DNA of 64,000 bases from Arthrobacter sp. AQ5-05 (GTDB lineage Bacteria; Actinomycetota; Actinomycetes; Actinomycetales; Micrococcaceae): NCBI RefSeq assembly GCF_003287975.1, contig NZ_QMKQ01000012.1:1-64000 (forward strand), in the 5' to 3' direction. Position 1 is the stretch's first letter, and the number at the start of each line of letters is the position of its first letter. The notes below the pieces were generated by a model. That model made no database searches. It saw only the letters and a list, made by a program, of their open reading frames with translations, and was not told the DNA's origin. Made by a program: the position numbers and the translations under genes. Below are positions 23,071-30,392 of the stretch, one piece after another.

Positions 23071-23820
23071 TCAGGGCACCCAGACGATGCCGGCCACCAG
23101 GGTGCCGGGAAGCGTGCGTCCCAGGGAATCGGGGGTTCCCGGCAACGGCTCGAGCACGCGCGTGCCCGCGGCCCGCAGCAACGGATGCCGGTGCTCCCCG
23201 GCAACCACCGGGATTCCGCCCTCACCCGCCAGGCCCTCCCCGGCGGCCTTGGCCACCGCTTCCTTCAGCGCCCACCACCGGGCCCGCAGTTGCTGCCGTG
23301 CCGGGCCCGGCAGCGCCCGAAGCCGGGTGCGTTCCCCCGGTGCGTAGGCGTAGTCCTCGAGCAGGTTCCCGTCCCCCGGGCCGAACGCGGCATCGGCCGA
23401 ATCGGCCAGGTCCACGCCCAGCCGCCCGCGCCCGGGGGCCAGGCCCAGCAGCAGCCAACCCGCGGTGCGGGCGTAGGACAGCGCGTAGCGGTCCCCGCGG
23501 TGCGGCAGGCACAGCCGCGGGGCCCCATGCGCGGTGGAGGCGCATTGCGGACACCACTGGGCGAGCTGGAGATCGCCCGGAAGGACATCCCGGCCCTGCA
23601 CCCCGGCGAGGCCCAGGAGTTCGGCCGCCAGCACCCTGGCCAGGATCCGCCCGGCCACGAAGTCCTCGCGCGGGCGCCCGGCGGCGTAGCCCCGGGCGCG
23701 GGCGAGTTCTTCCGGGAGCAGCTTGACCCCGGGGTGCGCCGCGGCGGCGGACAACGGGGCAATGGCCCACCACGGGGCACCGGGGCCAATGCCCGCTCCG
23801 GGCGCTGCTTGCACATCCAT
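23071..23820 (-). CDS. 4'-phosphopantetheinyl transferase (Sfp type)
   Basis: It transfers phosphopantetheine from CoA to the serine of carrier domains. The 249-residue protein has the magnesium-binding LGVDLAD (GVD at 135-137) and WALKEAVAKAAGEGL (W183, K186-E187), the two Sfp/EntD hallmarks. Two Cys pairs (CPQC 90-93, Cys104) are an unusual extra. The ATG at 23820 follows AAGAAGGGGACATGC. It is divergent from the NRPS-like gene by 305 bases and is the natural activator of that protein's carrier domain. Confidence 0.85.
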   Translation of the reverse strand: MDVQAAPGAGIGPGAPWWAIAPLSAAAAHPGVKLLPEELARARGYAAGRPREDFVAGRILARVLAAELLGLAGVQGRDVLPGDLQLAQWCPQCASTAHGAPRLCLPHRGDRYALSYARTAGWLLLGLAPGRGRLGVDLADSADAAFGPGDGNLLEDYAYAPGERTRLRALPGPARQQLRARWWALKEAVAKAAGEGLAGEGGIPVVAGEHRHPLLRAAGTRVLEPLPGTPDSLGRTLPGTLVAGIVWVP

Positions 23821-24125
23821 GCATGTCCCCTTCTTGTGCTGGCCCGGTGGCCGGTTCCGGCTGCCTCGAGTATGGCGCATCGGGCAGCGGATTCCGGAAT
23901 CACGTCCGCCTTCGCGGCACATGATCCGCGGCACATTTCGCCCACAACCCCATGTCGTTCACCCTCTGTACGCCTGGCGTTAACCTTCCCTGCATACGGT
24001 TGCCGCGTACGTGCCGGCCGGGCGGTGGCGGGCGCCCCGGCGGCGCCGCGGGTCCCGGCAGGGCCCCCGCGTCTTGGGTCTCCCCGCACGGGGAAGTCCG
24101 GGCACCACTTTTCAAGAAAGCCGCA
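23821..24125. promoter_or_regulatory. Divergent control region of PPTase and Pls-like genes
   Basis: This 305-base gap holds no credible gene. The plus-strand frame above the Pls-like start (from an ATG at 23952) is open, but it reads as Gly/Pro/Arg-rich non-family sequence. No clear operator was identified. Confidence 0.4.
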
Positions 24126-27100
24126 GTGGATACGACACCCAGCACTTCAGACCCGGCAACCACCGCCACCGTCTTGTCTCCGCAATACCCCGGCAGCGGG
24201 CTGGCCCCGGCGCCCCGCACCCTCATGGACATCCTAGCGGCCAGTGCGTCCGCCCACCCCGAGGCCCCCGCACTGGATGACGGCGAGCGCTCGCTGACCT
24301 ACGCGGATCTGCTGGCGGCCATCGACGAGATGGCCCAGCGCCTGCGGGCCGCCGGACTCGGTGCCGGAGACCGCATCGGAATTCGCATCCCCTCCGGCAC
24401 CCGCGAGCTCTACATCGGCATCCTGGCCACGATGGAGATCGGCGCCGCCTACGTCCCCGTCGATGCCGATGATCCCGAGGAACGTGCCCGGCTGGTCTTT
24501 TCCGAGGCCGGGGTTGCAGCTGTCATCGGCGAAAAGGGGACGATCACCTCCCTGCGCGCAGCGCCCAACCCGGAGCCCGCCCGCGACGCCGGGCCGGGCG
24601 ATGACGCCTGGATCATCTTCACTTCCGGATCCACCGGAACACCCAAGGGCGTGGCCATCACCCAGCGCTCGGCGGCCGCCTTCGTCGACGCCGAGGCCCG
24701 GATCTTCCTGGCGGGTGATCCGCTGGGCGCCGAGGACCGCGTGCTGGCCGGGCTGTCGGTGGCCTTCGACGCCTCCTGCGAGGAAATGTGGCTGGCCTGG
24801 CGCCATGGCGCCTGCCTGGTGCCCGCACCGCGCGCGCTGGTGCGTTCGGGCATGGACCTGGGACCCTGGCTGGTGACCCGAGGGGTCACCGTCGTCTCCA
24901 CCGTCCCCACCCTCGCCGCACTCTGGCCCGCGGAGGCCCTGGAAAATGTGCGGCTGCTGATCTTCGGCGGCGAGGCCTGCCCGCCCGAGCTCGCCGCCCG
25001 GCTGGCCGTTCCGGGACGAGAGGTCTGGAACACCTACGGCCCGACCGAGGCGACCGTCGTGGCCTGTGCCGCGCAAATGGACGGCACCGACCCGGTCCGC
25101 ATCGGCCTGCCGCTTCAGGGCTGGGACCTTGCGGTCGTCGACGCTTCGGGCTTGCCCGTGGCCCCGGGCCAGAGCGGGGAACTGATCATCGGAGGCGTCG
25201 GGCTGGGCCGCTACCTGGACCCGGCCAAGGACAAGGAGAAATACGCGCCCTTCGAGACCCTGGGCTGGGAGCGCGCCTACCGCTCCGGGGACCTCGTGCA
25301 GGCCGACCCGGCCGGGCTCATTTTCCTGGGCCGCATGGACGAACAGGTCAAGCTCGGCGGCCGGCGCATCGAACTCGGCGAAATCGACGCGGCGCTGCAA
25401 TCCCTGCCCGGGGTTTCCGGGGCCGCGGCCGCGGTAAAGACCACGGCGGCCGGCAACCAGATCCTCGTCGGCTACCTGGCCGCCGCCCCGGGCTACGACA
25501 CCGCTGCCGCGCGCGGCCGGCTTTCCGATGTGCTTCCGGCGCCGCTGATCCCGCTGCTGGCCGTGGTGCAGATCCTGCCCACCAAGACCAGCGGCAAGGT
25601 CGACCGCCACGCGCTGCCCTGGCCGTTGCCCGGCGCCACCGGAACGGGCCCCGCCGGGGTGCTGCCGGAGCTGGACGGCGATGCGGCCTGGGTCCTCGAG
25701 CAGTGGACCCGGGTACTGGGAACCGAGGTCGGCTCCCTGGAGGCCGACTTCTTCGCCTCCGGCGGCGGCTCGCTTTCCGCCGCACAGCTGGTCTCCGCCC
25801 TGCGCGTGCGCTACCGCACCGTCACGGTGGCCGAGATCTACTCCCATCCGCGCATCGGGTCGCTGCTCGAGGCCCTTGGTGCCCGAAGCGGCGAGGCACC
25901 CGAGACCCGCACCGTTCAACGCACCACCAGGCGCGCCCAGGTCTTCCAGACGCTGATGGGCATCCCCACCTTCATCCTGGTGGGCATGCGCTGGCTCGTG
26001 TACCTGGCCGCCGGCAACAACGTGCTCGCGGCCCTGGGCGTGTTTTCCGACGCTCCGCGGCTGTCCTGGTGGGCCGTGGCCGCGCTCTGGCTCGTCTTCG
26101 TCTCCTCCCCCGGGTGCATGGCGCTGTCCGTCGTGGCGGCCCGCACGCTGCTGCGCGGCCTGAAGCCCGGGAACTACCCGCGTTCGGGCAAGGTGCACCT
26201 GCGGCTGTGGATGGCCCAGCAGATCGCCGACCTCGCCGATCCCGTCTCGCTGGGCAGCGCCCACTGGATCCAGTTCTACGCCCGCGCCCTGGGCGCGAAG
26301 ATCGGCAGCGATGTGCAGCTGCACTCGATCCCGCCGGTCACCGGCCTGCTCGCCGTGGGCCGCGGCGCCAGCATCGAACCCGAGGTCGACCTCACCGGCT
26401 ACTGGATCGATGGTGACCGACTGATCGTGGGCGCCGTCGAGATCGGCGCCGAGGCCAGCATCGGGGCACGCAGCACGCTGATGCCCGGCTCCGTGGTCGC
26501 CGACGGCGTGGAGCTTGCCGCCGGCTCCGCCCTGGCCGGAACCACCCGCGCTTTCTCCGCCTACTCCGGCTCGCCGGCCGAACGCAGCGGCAAGGCCAAG
26601 CCGGCCTGGCCGCAGGCCCCGCTCCGCACCCGCAAGGTGCGCAACTCCCTGCTCGCCGCCGCGTCCTCGGCCCTGGGCGCCATCCCCCTGCTCTCCATCC
26701 TCGGCGCCGTGTTCGTCTCCGCGCTGCTGCTGCGCGGCCAGGCCTCGCTGCACGACGCCCCGCTCCGGCTCACGCTGGTGGTTCCCGCGGCCGCACTGGT
26801 GTGGTTCGGACTGAACATGCTGCTGGTGCTTGTCGCCACCCGCCTGCTGGGCCTTGGCCTGCGCGAGGGCTGGCACCGGGTCGACAGCCGCATCGGCTGG
26901 CAGGTCTGGGCCACCGAGCGCCTGCTGGACATGGCCCGCGACCTGCTCTTCCCGCTTTACGCCTCGCTCTTCACCCCGGTGTGGCTGCGCCTGCTCGGCG
27001 CCAAGGTCGGACGCAACGTCGAGGCCTCCACGGTGCTGCTGATCCCCAAGATGACCACCATCGGCAGCGGCTCCTTCCTGGCCGACGACACCATGGTCGC

Positions 27101-28028
27101 CACCTACGAGCTCGGCGGCGGCTGGCTGAAGGTCGGACGCACCAAGATCGGCAAGCGCGCCTTCCTGGGCAACTCCGGCATCGCCGGTGCCGGGCGCCGC
27201 GTGCCGCGCAACGGCCTGGTCGCCGTGCTCTCGGCCACCCCCGCCAAGGCCAAGTCCGGGACCTCCTGGCTGGGCAGCCCGCCGGTGCGCCTGCGCCGCA
27301 CCGCGGTGGCCTCCGACGACTCGCTCACCTACGCCCCGCCGACGCGGTTGAAGGTCGCCCGCGCGCTGTGGGAACTGTGCCGCTTCGTGCCGGTCGTCGT
27401 GACCGTGGGCGTCGCGGCCCTGGTGCTGGTGCTGCTTGACCTGCTGGCCGCGCACTACGGCTACCAGGTTGCCGCGTTGCTCAGCGGCGCGGTGATGCTG
27501 GCGGCAGGCGCCGTCGCGGCCACCTCCGCCGTCGTTGCCAAGTGGCTGTTGGTCGGCCCCATCCGCCCGGGCGAACACGCCCTGTGGAGCTCGTTCATCT
27601 GGCGCAACGAGGTCGTTGACACGTTCATCGAGATGGTCTGCGCCCCGTGGTTCGCCCACTCCGCCGCCGGGTCCCCGGCCCTGGTCTGGTGGCTTCGCGC
27701 CCTGGGCGCGAAGATCGGCCACGGCGTCTGGTGCGAAAGCTACTGGCTGCCCGAGGCCGACCTGGTCACCCTCGGGGATTCGGCGACGGTCAACCGCGGC
27801 ACCGTGGTCCAGACCCACCTCTTCCACGACCGGGTCATGGCCATTGATACGGTGGAACTCTCCGCGGGATCCACGATGGGCCCGCACGGGGTCATCCTGC
27901 CCGCCGCCTCCCTGGCCGCGGGCGCCACGGTGGGCCCGGGCTCGCTGGTGATGCGCGGGGAAACCGTTCCCCCGTCGAGCTACTGGATGGGCAACCCCGT
28001 CCAACCCTGGAGCCAGCCGCACGCATGA
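24126..28028 (+). CDS. Pls/PosA-family membrane non-ribosomal peptide synthetase
   Basis: This 1300-residue protein matches the layout of epsilon-poly-L-lysine synthetase: adenylation domain (about 30-500), carrier domain with GGGSLSAAQLV (Ser549), then three pairs of membrane helices alternating with three left-handed beta-helix, acetyltransferase-like C-domains. Each C-domain opens LGAKIG or LGAKVG (residues 722, 957 and 1193). There is no condensation or thioesterase domain. Adenylation motifs include IIFTSGSTGTPKGV and NTYGPTEATVV. By eye the pocket residues are D215, A216, E219, S258, I279, G281, T303, V311, V312 and K491, close to the lysine code. The GTG start is chosen because the upstream frame is not family-like. 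The M1 peptidase gene overlaps its end (ATGA). Confidence 0.88.
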   Translation: MDTTPSTSDPATTATVLSPQYPGSGLAPAPRTLMDILAASASAHPEAPALDDGERSLTYADLLAAIDEMAQRLRAAGLGAGDRIGIRIPSGTRELYIGILATMEIGAAYVPVDADDPEERARLVFSEAGVAAVIGEKGTITSLRAAPNPEPARDAGPGDDAWIIFTSGSTGTPKGVAITQRSAAAFVDAEARIFLAGDPLGAEDRVLAGLSVAFDASCEEMWLAWRHGACLVPAPRALVRSGMDLGPWLVTRGVTVVSTVPTLAALWPAEALENVRLLIFGGEACPPELAARLAVPGREVWNTYGPTEATVVACAAQMDGTDPVRIGLPLQGWDLAVVDASGLPVAPGQSGELIIGGVGLGRYLDPAKDKEKYAPFETLGWERAYRSGDLVQADPAGLIFLGRMDEQVKLGGRRIELGEIDAALQSLPGVSGAAAAVKTTAAGNQILVGYLAAAPGYDTAAARGRLSDVLPAPLIPLLAVVQILPTKTSGKVDRHALPWPLPGATGTGPAGVLPELDGDAAWVLEQWTRVLGTEVGSLEADFFASGGGSLSAAQLVSALRVRYRTVTVAEIYSHPRIGSLLEALGARSGEAPETRTVQRTTRRAQVFQTLMGIPTFILVGMRWLVYLAAGNNVLAALGVFSDAPRLSWWAVAALWLVFVSSPGCMALSVVAARTLLRGLKPGNYPRSGKVHLRLWMAQQIADLADPVSLGSAHWIQFYARALGAKIGSDVQLHSIPPVTGLLAVGRGASIEPEVDLTGYWIDGDRLIVGAVEIGAEASIGARSTLMPGSVVADGVELAAGSALAGTTRAFSAYSGSPAERSGKAKPAWPQAPLRTRKVRNSLLAAASSALGAIPLLSILGAVFVSALLLRGQASLHDAPLRLTLVVPAAALVWFGLNMLLVLVATRLLGLGLREGWHRVDSRIGWQVWATERLLDMARDLLFPLYASLFTPVWLRLLGAKVGRNVEASTVLLIPKMTTIGSGSFLADDTMVATYELGGGWLKVGRTKIGKRAFLGNSGIAGAGRRVPRNGLVAVLSATPAKAKSGTSWLGSPPVRLRRTAVASDDSLTYAPPTRLKVARALWELCRFVPVVVTVGVAALVLVLLDLLAAHYGYQVAALLSGAVMLAAGAVAATSAVVAKWLLVGPIRPGEHALWSSFIWRNEVVDTFIEMVCAPWFAHSAAGSPALVWWLRALGAKIGHGVWCESYWLPEADLVTLGDSATVNRGTVVQTHLFHDRVMAIDTVELSAGSTMGPHGVILPAASLAAGATVGPGSLVMRGETVPPSSYWMGNPVQPWSQPHA

Positions 28029-29419
28029 GCCACACCCCACCACACGACACGGGCGCCACGGCCCCCTTCATCCCGGATACCTATGTGCCGCGCTCCGGAA
28101 GCGCCGACTACCGCGTCACGCACTACGACCTGGACCTGGACTGCAGGCTCGGGGGCAACCGGCTCGACGGACGGGCCACCATCACCGCCGTGGCCCTCAC
28201 CGAGCTGCTGCGCATCGGCCTGGACCTCTCCGGGCTGCGCGCCTCGCGCTGCCAGGTCAACGGCTCCAAGATCGCCAGGTCCACGCAGAAGGCCGGAAGG
28301 CTGGAACTGCACCTGCACTCCCCGGTGCCGGCCGGGGAGGAATTCACCGTGGAGATCCGCTACGGCGGGGTCCCGAACGTGCGCCGGGGAACCTGGGGCG
28401 AGGTCGGCTGGGAGGAGCTCCAGGACGGGGTGCTTGTGGCCGGCCAACCCAACGGGGCCCCCACCTGGTTCCCCTGCAACGACCACCCCAGCCAAAAGGC
28501 GACCTACCGCATCCGCGTCAACACCGATGCCGGTTACCGCCCGGTGAGCAACGGGAAGCTGGTGGACCGCCAACGGCGCTCCAGCCGCGAACGCTGGACC
28601 TATGAGGTCAACGAGCCGATGGCCACCTACCTGGCGACGCTGCAGATCGGCCGCTATGATTTGTGTTCCCTGGCCGGGACCTCCGCCGCGGCAGCCGGGC
28701 GGCACGCCGGCGCCCCGGCGCCGGTGCCCCAACTGGTGGCCGCCAACTCCGCGGCACTGCACCGGGTCGCGGCCGCACTGGCCGACCAGCCGCGGATGAT
28801 GGAAACCTTCATCGAGGCCTTCGGCCCCTACCCGTTTGCGGACTACACCGTCGTGGTCACCGAGGACGAGCTGGAAATCCCGCTGGAGGCGCACGGGATT
28901 TCCATCCTGGGCGACAACCACCTGGCCCCGGGCTGGGAGCAGCAGCGGCTGATCGCCCACGAGCTCTCCCACCAGTGGTTCGGCAACTCGTTGACCGTCG
29001 GGTCGTGGAAAGACATCTGGTTGCACGAGGGCTTCGCCTGCTACGCCGAATGGATCTGGTCCGAAGCCGCCGGCGGCCCCGGCGCCGACGCGCGTGCCAG
29101 GGATGCCTGGGATTTGCTCGCTTCCCTGGAGCAGGACATCGCCGTCGGGGACCCCGGACCGGCGGACATGTTCGACGACCGGGTCTACAAGCGCGGCGCC
29201 CTGACGCTGCACGCCCTGCGGCTGGCCGCCGGAGACCGCGCCTTCTTCGCGATGCTGCGGGCCTGGACCGGGTCCCGGCGCCACGGGACCGTCACCTACG
29301 CCCTGTTCCGCGACCACGTCGACGCGCATCTGCCCCTCTTCCCCTCGGCCGAGGCGTTCCTGGAACCCTGGCTCTTCGGGAAGACGCTGCCAGCACTGCC
29401 CGCTCCCGCTGCGCCCTGA
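28025..29419 (+). CDS. M1-family zinc metallopeptidase
   Basis: This 464-residue M1 (aminopeptidase N-like) enzyme has an N-terminal beta domain (about 15-210) and a catalytic domain with the zinc site HELSHQWFGN (His312, Glu313, His316) and Glu335 in HEGFACYAEW. The spacing is an exact HExxH-18-E. In place of GAMEN it reads EIPLEAHG, a variant seen in short bacterial M1 members. No signal peptide is visible. Its ATG overlaps the Pls-like stop, so it is co-translated with the synthetase. Zn-dependent aminopeptidases are known to degrade epsilon-poly-lysine in producers, so trimming, turnover or self-protection is the inferred role. Confidence 0.85.
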   Translation: MSHTPPHDTGATAPFIPDTYVPRSGSADYRVTHYDLDLDCRLGGNRLDGRATITAVALTELLRIGLDLSGLRASRCQVNGSKIARSTQKAGRLELHLHSPVPAGEEFTVEIRYGGVPNVRRGTWGEVGWEELQDGVLVAGQPNGAPTWFPCNDHPSQKATYRIRVNTDAGYRPVSNGKLVDRQRRSSRERWTYEVNEPMATYLATLQIGRYDLCSLAGTSAAAAGRHAGAPAPVPQLVAANSAALHRVAAALADQPRMMETFIEAFGPYPFADYTVVVTEDELEIPLEAHGISILGDNHLAPGWEQQRLIAHELSHQWFGNSLTVGSWKDIWLHEGFACYAEWIWSEAAGGPGADARARDAWDLLASLEQDIAVGDPGPADMFDDRVYKRGALTLHALRLAAGDRAFFAMLRAWTGSRRHGTVTYALFRDHVDAHLPLFPSAEAFLEPWLFGKTLPALPAPAAP

Positions 29420-29507
29420 CACCGGGGGCCAATGGACCTGGTCACATTCCCCTTTCCGGCCCCCCGATGTTCATCTTCCGTTCACCGGACCCGCATACGG
29501 TCAAGAC

Positions 29508-30392
29508 ATGCAATTGCTTGATTTGGCCGCCCACGGCTATTCCATCCGAGACGATGACGATGACGACCCGGTGCTGTTGACCGCAGCCGGGGAAGTCGTG
29601 GACACCTGGCGCGAGGGTTACCCGTATTCCTCGCGCATGGACCGCTCCCGGTACGACCTGGAGAAGCGGCTGCTGCAGATCGAGCTGCTCAAGCTCCAGG
29701 TCTGGGTCAAGGCCACCGGGAGGCGCCTCGTGGTGCTCTTCGAGGGACGCGACGCCGCCGGCAAGGGCGGGACCATCAAGCGCTTCACCGAGCACCTGAA
29801 CCCCCGCGGCGCCCGTGTCGTGGCGCTGGAGAAGCCCAGCAAGCGCGAATCCACCCAGTGGTTCTTCCAGCGCTACATCGCGCATCTTCCGGCTGCCGGC
29901 GAGATGGTCCTCTTCGACCGTTCCTGGTACAACCGCTCGGGAGTGGAGCGGGTCATGCGTTTCTGCACCCGCGAGGAGTTCGACCGCTTCATGCACCAGA
30001 CCCCGGCCTTCGAGAAGCAGCTCGTCGACGACGGGATCACGCTGGTGAAGTTCTGGTTCTCGGTCACCCGCAGCGAGCAACTCACCCGCTTCACGATCCG
30101 GCAGATCGACCCGGTGCGGCAGTGGAAGCTCTCCCCCACCGACCTGGCGTCGCTGGACAAGTGGGATTCCTACACCGAGGCCAAGGAGGAGACCTTCCGG
30201 TCCACCGACACCGACTGGGCGCCGTGGACCGTGGTGAAGTCCAATGACAAGAAGCGTGCCCGGCTCGGGGCGATGCGCCACGTGCTGAGCTTGTTCGACT
30301 ACGACGGCAAGGACCACGAACTGGTCGGGACGCCGGATCCGCTCATCGTCGGTCCGGCCGCCGCGGTCATCGCCGCCGGGGAGGAATTCTAG
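29508..30392 (+). CDS. ppk2: Polyphosphate kinase 2
   Basis: This cytosolic PPK2-family enzyme uses polyphosphate to phosphorylate nucleotides, or the reverse. The 294-residue single-domain protein has Walker A FEGRDAAGKGGTI (78-90), the lid-region KRESTQWFFQRYIAHLPAAGEMVLFDRSWYNRSGVERVM with Walker B Asp, and the class I-type DPVRQWKLSPTDL. An acidic tract (DDDDDD, 15-20) lies near the N-terminus. The start has no Shine-Dalgarno, but TACGGT lies 6 bases upstream. It is probably transcribed separately from the M1 gene 88 bases before it. Confidence 0.93.
   Translation: MQLLDLAAHGYSIRDDDDDDPVLLTAAGEVVDTWREGYPYSSRMDRSRYDLEKRLLQIELLKLQVWVKATGRRLVVLFEGRDAAGKGGTIKRFTEHLNPRGARVVALEKPSKRESTQWFFQRYIAHLPAAGEMVLFDRSWYNRSGVERVMRFCTREEFDRFMHQTPAFEKQLVDDGITLVKFWFSVTRSEQLTRFTIRQIDPVRQWKLSPTDLASLDKWDSYTEAKEETFRSTDTDWAPWTVVKSNDKKRARLGAMRHVLSLFDYDGKDHELVGTPDPLIVGPAAAVIAAGEEF

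Follow-up and report, generated by a model that had tools for sequence, protein, structure and literature searches.

A putative epsilon-polylysine locus of Arthrobacter sp. AQ5-05 with a linked PPK2-family kinase gene and candidate PHO-box promoters

The window analysed here, a stretch of 64,000 nucleotides of Arthrobacter sp. AQ5-05 (contig NZ_QMKQ01000012.1 of assembly GCF_003287975.1, positions 1 to 64,000), carries a locus in which what appears to be the known gene set for the synthesis and trimming of epsilon-poly-L-lysine (epsilon-PL) is joined by a gene for a PPK2-family polyphosphate kinase that is apparently controlled by phosphate starvation and that may refuel the synthesis with ATP derived from polyphosphate. 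The explanation as a whole, i.e. an epsilon-PL locus in which PPK2 regenerates ATP and which is Pho-controlled via PhoP, is in our view probably correct, judging from the sequence and its relatives. A preliminary description of the same DNA had already read an Sfp-type phosphopantetheinyl transferase (PPTase), a Pls-type synthetase and an M1 zinc peptidase as a unit that makes, activates and trims a lysine-type polymer. All three parts were recovered in place by open reading frames (ORFs) and domain searches, and the unit is supported by the lysine pocket of the synthetase, by the association with M1 and by the PPTase linkage; it was incomplete, in that the PPK2 gene at 29508-30392 and two promoter boxes had been overlooked. 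The pls-peptidase operon in Streptomyces and C. variabile and the Pls homologues in Arthrobacter are already published, and no report of PPK2 linkage or of Pho control of pls was found among the matches listed for the open-licence literature.

The locus was compared with a family set of 197 genomes from 32 genera, with a survey of 120 loci (the listed places of at least 1250 bits in the family search except that of the window, some lower-scoring ones, and eight from a search of the phylum), and with 80 named loci of actinomycetes, Streptomyces and Kitasatospora among them, which include no record of S. albulus. The synthetase itself lies in a long ORF at 23952-28028 (forward strand), in which Pfam recognizes an AMP-binding domain, a PP-binding domain and a sub-threshold hexapeptide repeat, with neither a condensation nor a thioesterase domain in the list, and which scores 678 bits against the terminal domain of the 'Pls/PosA family NRPS' (non-ribosomal peptide synthetase; TIGR02353, NCBIfam, cut-off 423). 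Because the ATG at 23952 sits directly before the first promoter repeat, the GTG at 24126 is the preferred start of pls, which then spans 24126..28028 (forward strand) and encodes 1300 residues. Hydropathy places three pairs of membrane segments, six in all, in the stretch from residue 668 to residue 1201 of the long ORF, where they set apart three tandem C-terminal domains, and the motifs LGAKIG, LGAKVG and LGAKIG stand at residues 780, 1015 and 1251 of that ORF; one marginal hydropathy peak within the adenylation (A) domain was taken as a false membrane segment. The earlier picture of a 1300-residue protein with A and thiolation (T) domains, six helices, three LGAK[IV]G domains and no condensation or thioesterase domain is borne out by hydropathy, Pfam and NCBIfam taken together.

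The best solved relative of the synthetase is 7WEW, the A domain of an epsilon-poly-L-lysine synthase (666 bits). The ten-residue pocket of the A domain, read by placing what we take to be the PheA positions on the A-domain motifs, is DAESIGTVVK, and all ten positions agree with 7WEW in the alignment, which marks the protein as an epsilon-poly-L-lysine synthetase and suggests that the product is epsilon-PL. Over 121 aligned rows (the window and the 120 loci) the code DAESIGTVVK occurs 103 times, DAESIGTVIK 14 times, DFECLSVVTK twice and DGESVSVVNK once, with one row truncated; the DAESIGTVIK rows belong to the lower-scoring Pls group (1000-1400 bits). At three loci of that group that were scanned (L057, L060 and L063), a gene for dihydrodipicolinate synthase comes next after pls and is followed by one for a membrane acyltransferase; as an enzyme of lysine supply, the synthase fits a lysine substrate, and together with the pocket it upholds the lysine type of product proposed before. 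The same combination is found by gene family at L152, L153 and L155. The acyltransferase of this group is of the HGSNAT type, M1 lies farther downstream at some of its loci, and the group is a lysine-supply variant, perhaps with an acylated polymer. Distant Pls paralogues in related genomes (L066, L067 and L076) account for the two remaining codes, of which DFECLSVVTK resembles the reported case of poly-diaminopropionate in its Phe at the size-gating position, and DGESVSVVNK is near the reported code for poly-beta-lysine.

Downstream on the same strand lies the PPK2 gene (29508..30392), whose assignment rests on TIGR03707 (370 bits, NCBIfam cut-off 302), on the nearest structures, on its distribution and on trees. 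Its best solved relatives, 5ll0/4yeg, 3czq and 6dzg, score 307-366 bits, and the polyphosphate:AMP enzymes at most 171 bits; 6dzg is a polyphosphate:ADP phosphotransferase, and 5ll0/4yeg and 3czq are presumably class I PPK2 enzymes of Francisella and Sinorhizobium. The kinase of the window is accordingly assigned to the class I type, and would form ATP from polyphosphate and ADP.

This PPK2 and pls travel together. All 31 PPK2 matches of at least 480 bits in the 197 family genomes, that of the window included, lie at pls loci, and two further, damaged pls-linked copies occur in genomes G144 and G029; among the matches listed, PPK2s of 440 bits or less are all away from pls, except for the damaged copy of G144. 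In the ten genera with a linked PPK2, 33 genomes have both pls and PPK2, four have pls alone and 17 are without a pls orthologue (two of these, G024 and G113, match Pls merely at the level of other A domains), and none of the 17 has a PPK2 of the linked group. A merely ancestral, syntenic PPK2 was rejected on this ground, as genomes of the same genera without pls lack the linked PPK2. The Fisher value for the co-occurrence, 1.3e-10, is far too small because of shared descent and is not relied on. In genome G144 (locus L145) the decay is joint, with interruptions in each of pls, M1 and PPK2. In a 52-row tree, from which the split PPK2 of L087 was excluded by a score filter, a branch with 97/90 support separates the linked PPK2s from the rest; with 19 order-level sequences added and the alignment reduced to 65 rows (six near-identical rows of 71 dropped, the rest trimmed to the core), the linked group is recovered with 92/85 support and in 92% of bootstrap trees. 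Two further arguments were discarded. An acidic N-terminus of PPK2 is no signature of the linked group, since order-level PPK2s share it, and the idea that PPK2 stays with pls in two chromosomal contexts fell because the window also has argJ, pheT and pheS, i.e. the same context with a sugar ABC operon in between.

The second line of evidence comes from the promoters. A PHO box consists of two direct repeats of 11 nucleotides, with the core GTTCACC in S. coelicolor (PMC4415409). The PPK2 promoter (29469..29501, forward strand), identified by an exact pattern match and by its matrix score, reads GTTCATCTTCC GTTCACCGGAC, then after 3 nucleotides CATACGGT, 6 nucleotides before the ATG. The pls promoter (23957..24000, forward strand), identified by sequence, matrix score and shuffle test, consists of three 11-nucleotide units, GTTCACCCTCT, GTACGCCTGGC and GTTAACCTTCC, followed after 3 nucleotides by CATACGGT, so that the two promoters have the same -10-like element at the same distance from the repeats. 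These tandem GTTCAC units, perfect before PPK2 and imperfect before pls, point to putative membership of both in the Pho regulon. With a matrix built from 19 linked boxes, close relatives included and that of the window left out, the top-scoring site on either strand of the window is the PPK2 box (26.6 bits) and the next is the pls promoter (15.2 bits), for which 3000 shuffles give p = 0.001. The exact pattern has four matches in the genome of 4.65 Mb, compared with one for the backward control: one before PPK2, one some 130 bases ahead of a pstS, and two in the region that separates a gene for a TIGR03364 oxidoreductase, a family that we take to belong to phosphonate metabolism, from a UTRA/GntR regulator that remains below both the PhnF and the HutC cut-offs.

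The boxes upstream of the linked PPK2 genes keep at least 10 of the 12 key positions in 32/32 genes, and all 12 in 13. For comparison, 14 of the 22 pstS matches were fetched, in addition to that of the genome itself, and one type of pstS promoter in the genus, with seven examples, scores 23-27 bits with the same matrix (26.0 in the genome itself). Among the 121 pls upstream regions, 21 sites of at least 14 bits lie on the forward strand, compared with one in reversed sequence, and a shuffle p of at most 0.01 is reached by 29 regions, by 13 of the reverse complements and by 5 of the reversed sequences; the upstream regions of Streptomyces-type pls reach it in 9/80, weakly. Upstream of pls at L136, L137, L139, L142-L144 and L069, strong PHO boxes (21-27 bits) occur on the opposite strand. 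A terminator scan gave one site, which is not above chance.

The peptidase gene (28025..29419, forward strand), recognized by Pfam M1, the zinc motif and the nearest structure, occupies the position that PldII has in S. albulus, and its ATG overlaps the stop of the synthetase by four bases (ATGA), just as had been described before. The nearest structure is 6a8z, an M1 enzyme presumably of D. radiodurans. M1 aminopeptidases carry the motif GAMEN; the enzyme of the window keeps the zinc motif HELSH and the later E, and has PLEA at the GAMEN place. Across 186 aligned M1 sequences the pattern HE--H is kept in all and the following E in at least 182, and P-L/V/I-E-A stands at the GAMEN place in all twelve commonest types, which comprise 136 of the sequences. 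In the survey, with counts based on single-sequence phmmer (an M1 profile drifted to 358 ORFs and was dropped), M1 directly follows pls on the same strand in 98/98 loci whose Pls reaches 1400 bits or more, 90 from the family and 8 from outside it. Of the 19 loci with a Pls of 1000-1400 bits, 8 have M1 farther downstream, one has it otherwise placed and 10 lack it, and it is also absent at the three lowest-scoring loci; the broken locus L145 is one of the eight with M1 farther downstream. M1 is also downstream of pls in 80/80 named loci (74 by a strict distance rule). The association in related genomes, which had been set in advance as the test of a partnership between M1 and the synthetase, is present at every one of the 98 high-scoring survey loci and of the 80 named loci.

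Divergently from pls, the PPTase gene occupies the ORF 23071..23934 on the reverse strand, with ATG 23820 or 23880 as the likely start. It scores 33 bits against Pfam ACPS (cut-off 25) and contains the motifs G-V-D and K-E, and D175, E225 and K229 are invariant in 44 aligned rows. The genome has two ACPS-domain matches at an E value of 0.001 or better, namely this PPTase and an AcpS-like frame of 131 residues; a further frame with an internal stop matches positions 25-158 of the 266-position PPTase profile. The motif of the window reads GVDLA, without its second acidic residue, the last position being E in 26 of the 44 rows, A in 11 and another residue in 7. In 76/90 family loci a related PPTase is encoded no more than 6.5 kb from pls, 71 of them with at least 80 bits and five below 60 bits (L116-L119 and L121); these are profile counts, three of the enzymes (window, L095 and L057) having been checked individually against Pfam. 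The Sfp-type PPTase upstream of pls thus holds as first described, with the limit on the trio that the linkage is mostly a family trait, the gene being near pls in 1/8 loci outside the family and in 0/80 named loci. The three genomes of the genus without pls give no strong PPTase match (none in G074, 8.7e-7 in G094 and 6.2e-18 in G126), compared with 3e-67 or better in the nine with pls. The gene is divergent and upstream in the genus of the window; in the other genera it comes after M1, on the opposite strand, except at a few lower-scoring loci. Arthrobacter sp. StoSoilB13 has pls (in two overlapping frames), M1 and PPTase in the downstream-of-M1 arrangement, and the nearest named match in a plasmid search is an Arthrobacter (68.6% identity). 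At L042 (genome G180, same genus) pls-M1 is flanked by a PPTase on both sides and PPK2 is missing, which is perhaps a trace of how the PPTase switched sides.

From what the sequence shows directly, namely the identities of the genes, the pocket, the overlap, the linkage and the repeats in the promoters, the following mechanism can be proposed. Limitation of phosphate would, through PhoP, switch on pls-M1 and PPK2 together, and the neighbouring PPTase would prime the T domain of Pls. The A domain would then activate L-lysine and pass it to its own T domain, and polymerisation would take place at the membrane by means of the three C-terminal domains. M1, translationally coupled and in the PldII position, would cut the polymer for the control of its length or for self-protection, and PPK2, from its own promoter, would convert ADP to ATP with polyphosphate for this ATP-hungry synthesis. 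The chemistry of A domains costs two phosphoanhydride bonds of ATP per residue. As they release AMP, this must first be raised to ADP in a further step, which adenylate kinase could carry out. That such refuelling can pay is suggested by engineering: in S. albulus with PPK2B of C. glutamicum and a polyphosphate:AMP phosphotransferase, epsilon-PL rose by 21% and intracellular ATP by 72% (PMC10012588), and overexpression of ppk with added polyphosphate raised epsilon-PL by 24% (PMC10157215). A bolder version, namely a natural polyphosphate-powered polylysine factory in which PhoP turns on pls-M1 and a dedicated PPK2, and in which phosphate limitation is the missing trigger of the silent coryneform clusters, is an attractive possibility to which we would give slightly less than an even chance.

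Two plasmid-borne neighbourhoods of Pls can be set beside this. On plasmids of R. opacus (L296 and L299) a CYTH/CHAD gene, a histidine phosphatase gene and phoU lie within a few kb of Pls, which possibly ties Pls to phosphate and polyphosphate in an independent way. On plasmid pMAH135 of M. avium (L295) the neighbours of a Pls/PosA gene are a gene for a cysteine-synthase-like protein, one for a large NRPS and a PE/PPE/WXG100 group, with no M1 within 3.5 kb.

Several observations weigh against the proposed role of PPK2, M1 and Pho control, and part of them would be expected of an ordinary epsilon-PL locus of pls and peptidase partners in which PPK2 is a Pho-regulon neighbour outside the pathway, an alternative that we hold to be unlikely and yet take seriously. 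The pls-peptidase operon is, after all, already known (PMC8117764). PPK2 is linked in 31 of the 90 family loci with a Pls of at least 1400 bits, was not found near pls in the other 59, and is linked in 0/80 Streptomyces-type loci (flanks of up to 6 kb, shorter at contig ends), so that synthesis as such can do without it. The genera have the same chromosomal surroundings (argJ, pheST), so that the linkage events are not independent, and unlinked PPK2s carry PHO boxes as well (6/20 and 10/19 with at least 10 of the 12 key positions). The 52-row tree came with a long-branch warning, and the grouping of the linked PPK2s relative to order-level sequences is moderately supported. Elsewhere in the order, outside the family, unlinked PPK2s reach 443-478 bits (up to 75% identity), and among the 20 genomes with the best order-level PPK2s a Pls orthologue is missing in 18 and present but unlinked in two. 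As for the promoters, the box before pls in the window departs from the pattern in its middle unit, GTACGC; 9 sites of at least 14 bits lie on the other strand of the same 121 pls upstream regions; and of eight loci with a second type of pstS, two reach 21 and 15 bits and six stay below 12, the second pstS of the genome itself included. Finally, there is no M1 within 3.5-5 kb of the plasmid-borne Pls of R. opacus (L296 and L299) and M. avium (L295), and hydropathy gives no membrane segment for the M1 of the window, in contrast to the location outside the membrane that has been reported for PldII (PMC9223678). What speaks against PPK2 as a mere neighbour is that every match of 480 bits or more in the 197 genomes stands at pls, that it is gone where pls is gone in its genera, that it decayed jointly with pls in G144, and that a box of this kind, with the same -10-like element, also precedes pls.

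If PPK2 instead ran toward polyphosphate, the polyanion could pair with the polycation in the cell and shield the producer until export. PPK2 reactions are reversible, CHAD is a polyphosphate-binding domain, and the R. opacus plasmids do have a CYTH/CHAD gene and phoU near Pls. We nevertheless consider this direction very unlikely, as the best solved relatives of the kinase include a polyphosphate:ADP phosphotransferase and score well above the polyphosphate:AMP enzymes, and as the production of polyphosphate under phosphate starvation would presumably be uneconomic. It is likewise highly improbable that the product is another diamino-acid polymer or a short isopeptide. Relatives of the Pls/PosA family do make poly-ornithine, poly-diaminobutyrate, poly-diaminopropionate or poly-beta-lysine (PMC10522769; PMC8117764), but the pocket of the window is identical to that of the lysine enzyme, and the paralogues in related genomes are those with other pockets (DFECLSVVTK and DGESVSVVNK). 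An epsilon-PL locus with ATP regeneration by PPK2 and Pho control thus remains the reading that we prefer.

Epsilon-polylysine has approval as a food preservative, and coryneform actinobacteria commonly have Pls homologues. With a PHO box both at pls and at the neighbouring PPK2, phosphate limitation becomes a concrete candidate trigger for silent clusters, and a pls-linked PPK2 would be the natural counterpart of engineered ATP regeneration and a source of a matched enzyme.

Among the known systems, the pls-pldII pair of S. albulus is like the locus of the window in its A-T-C1-C2-C3 synthetase with six helices, in its lysine pocket and in its coupled downstream peptidase, PldII being pls-coupled, endo-type and self-protective (PMC9223678). 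It differs in its surroundings, in so far as 80/80 related named loci, none of them from S. albulus, showed neither PPTase nor PPK2 in flanks of up to 6 kb. The coryneform loci share with the window a Pls orthologue and, in C. variabile, a peptidase gene, and the genera with Pls homologues include Arthrobacter, Micrococcus and Glutamicibacter (PMC8117764). The pls of C. variabile made epsilon-PL in S. coelicolor and its native cluster was silent, which the authors put down to the lack of an unknown trigger; linkage to PPTase, linkage to PPK2 and PHO boxes are unreported in the Results and Discussion of that paper (PMC8117764). PosA of Acinetobacter, a delta-poly-L-ornithine synthetase with an A core of 36% identity to 7WEW, has the same architecture as the Pls of the window and differs in its ornithine pocket, DMEHNGTVSK, and in its single-gene operon (PMC10522769). 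The engineered S. albulus (PMC10012588), in which ATP and epsilon-PL were raised, comes close to the proposed arrangement by having PPK2 and pls in one cell; there PPK2 was introduced by hand, whereas in the group of the window it is naturally found at pls.

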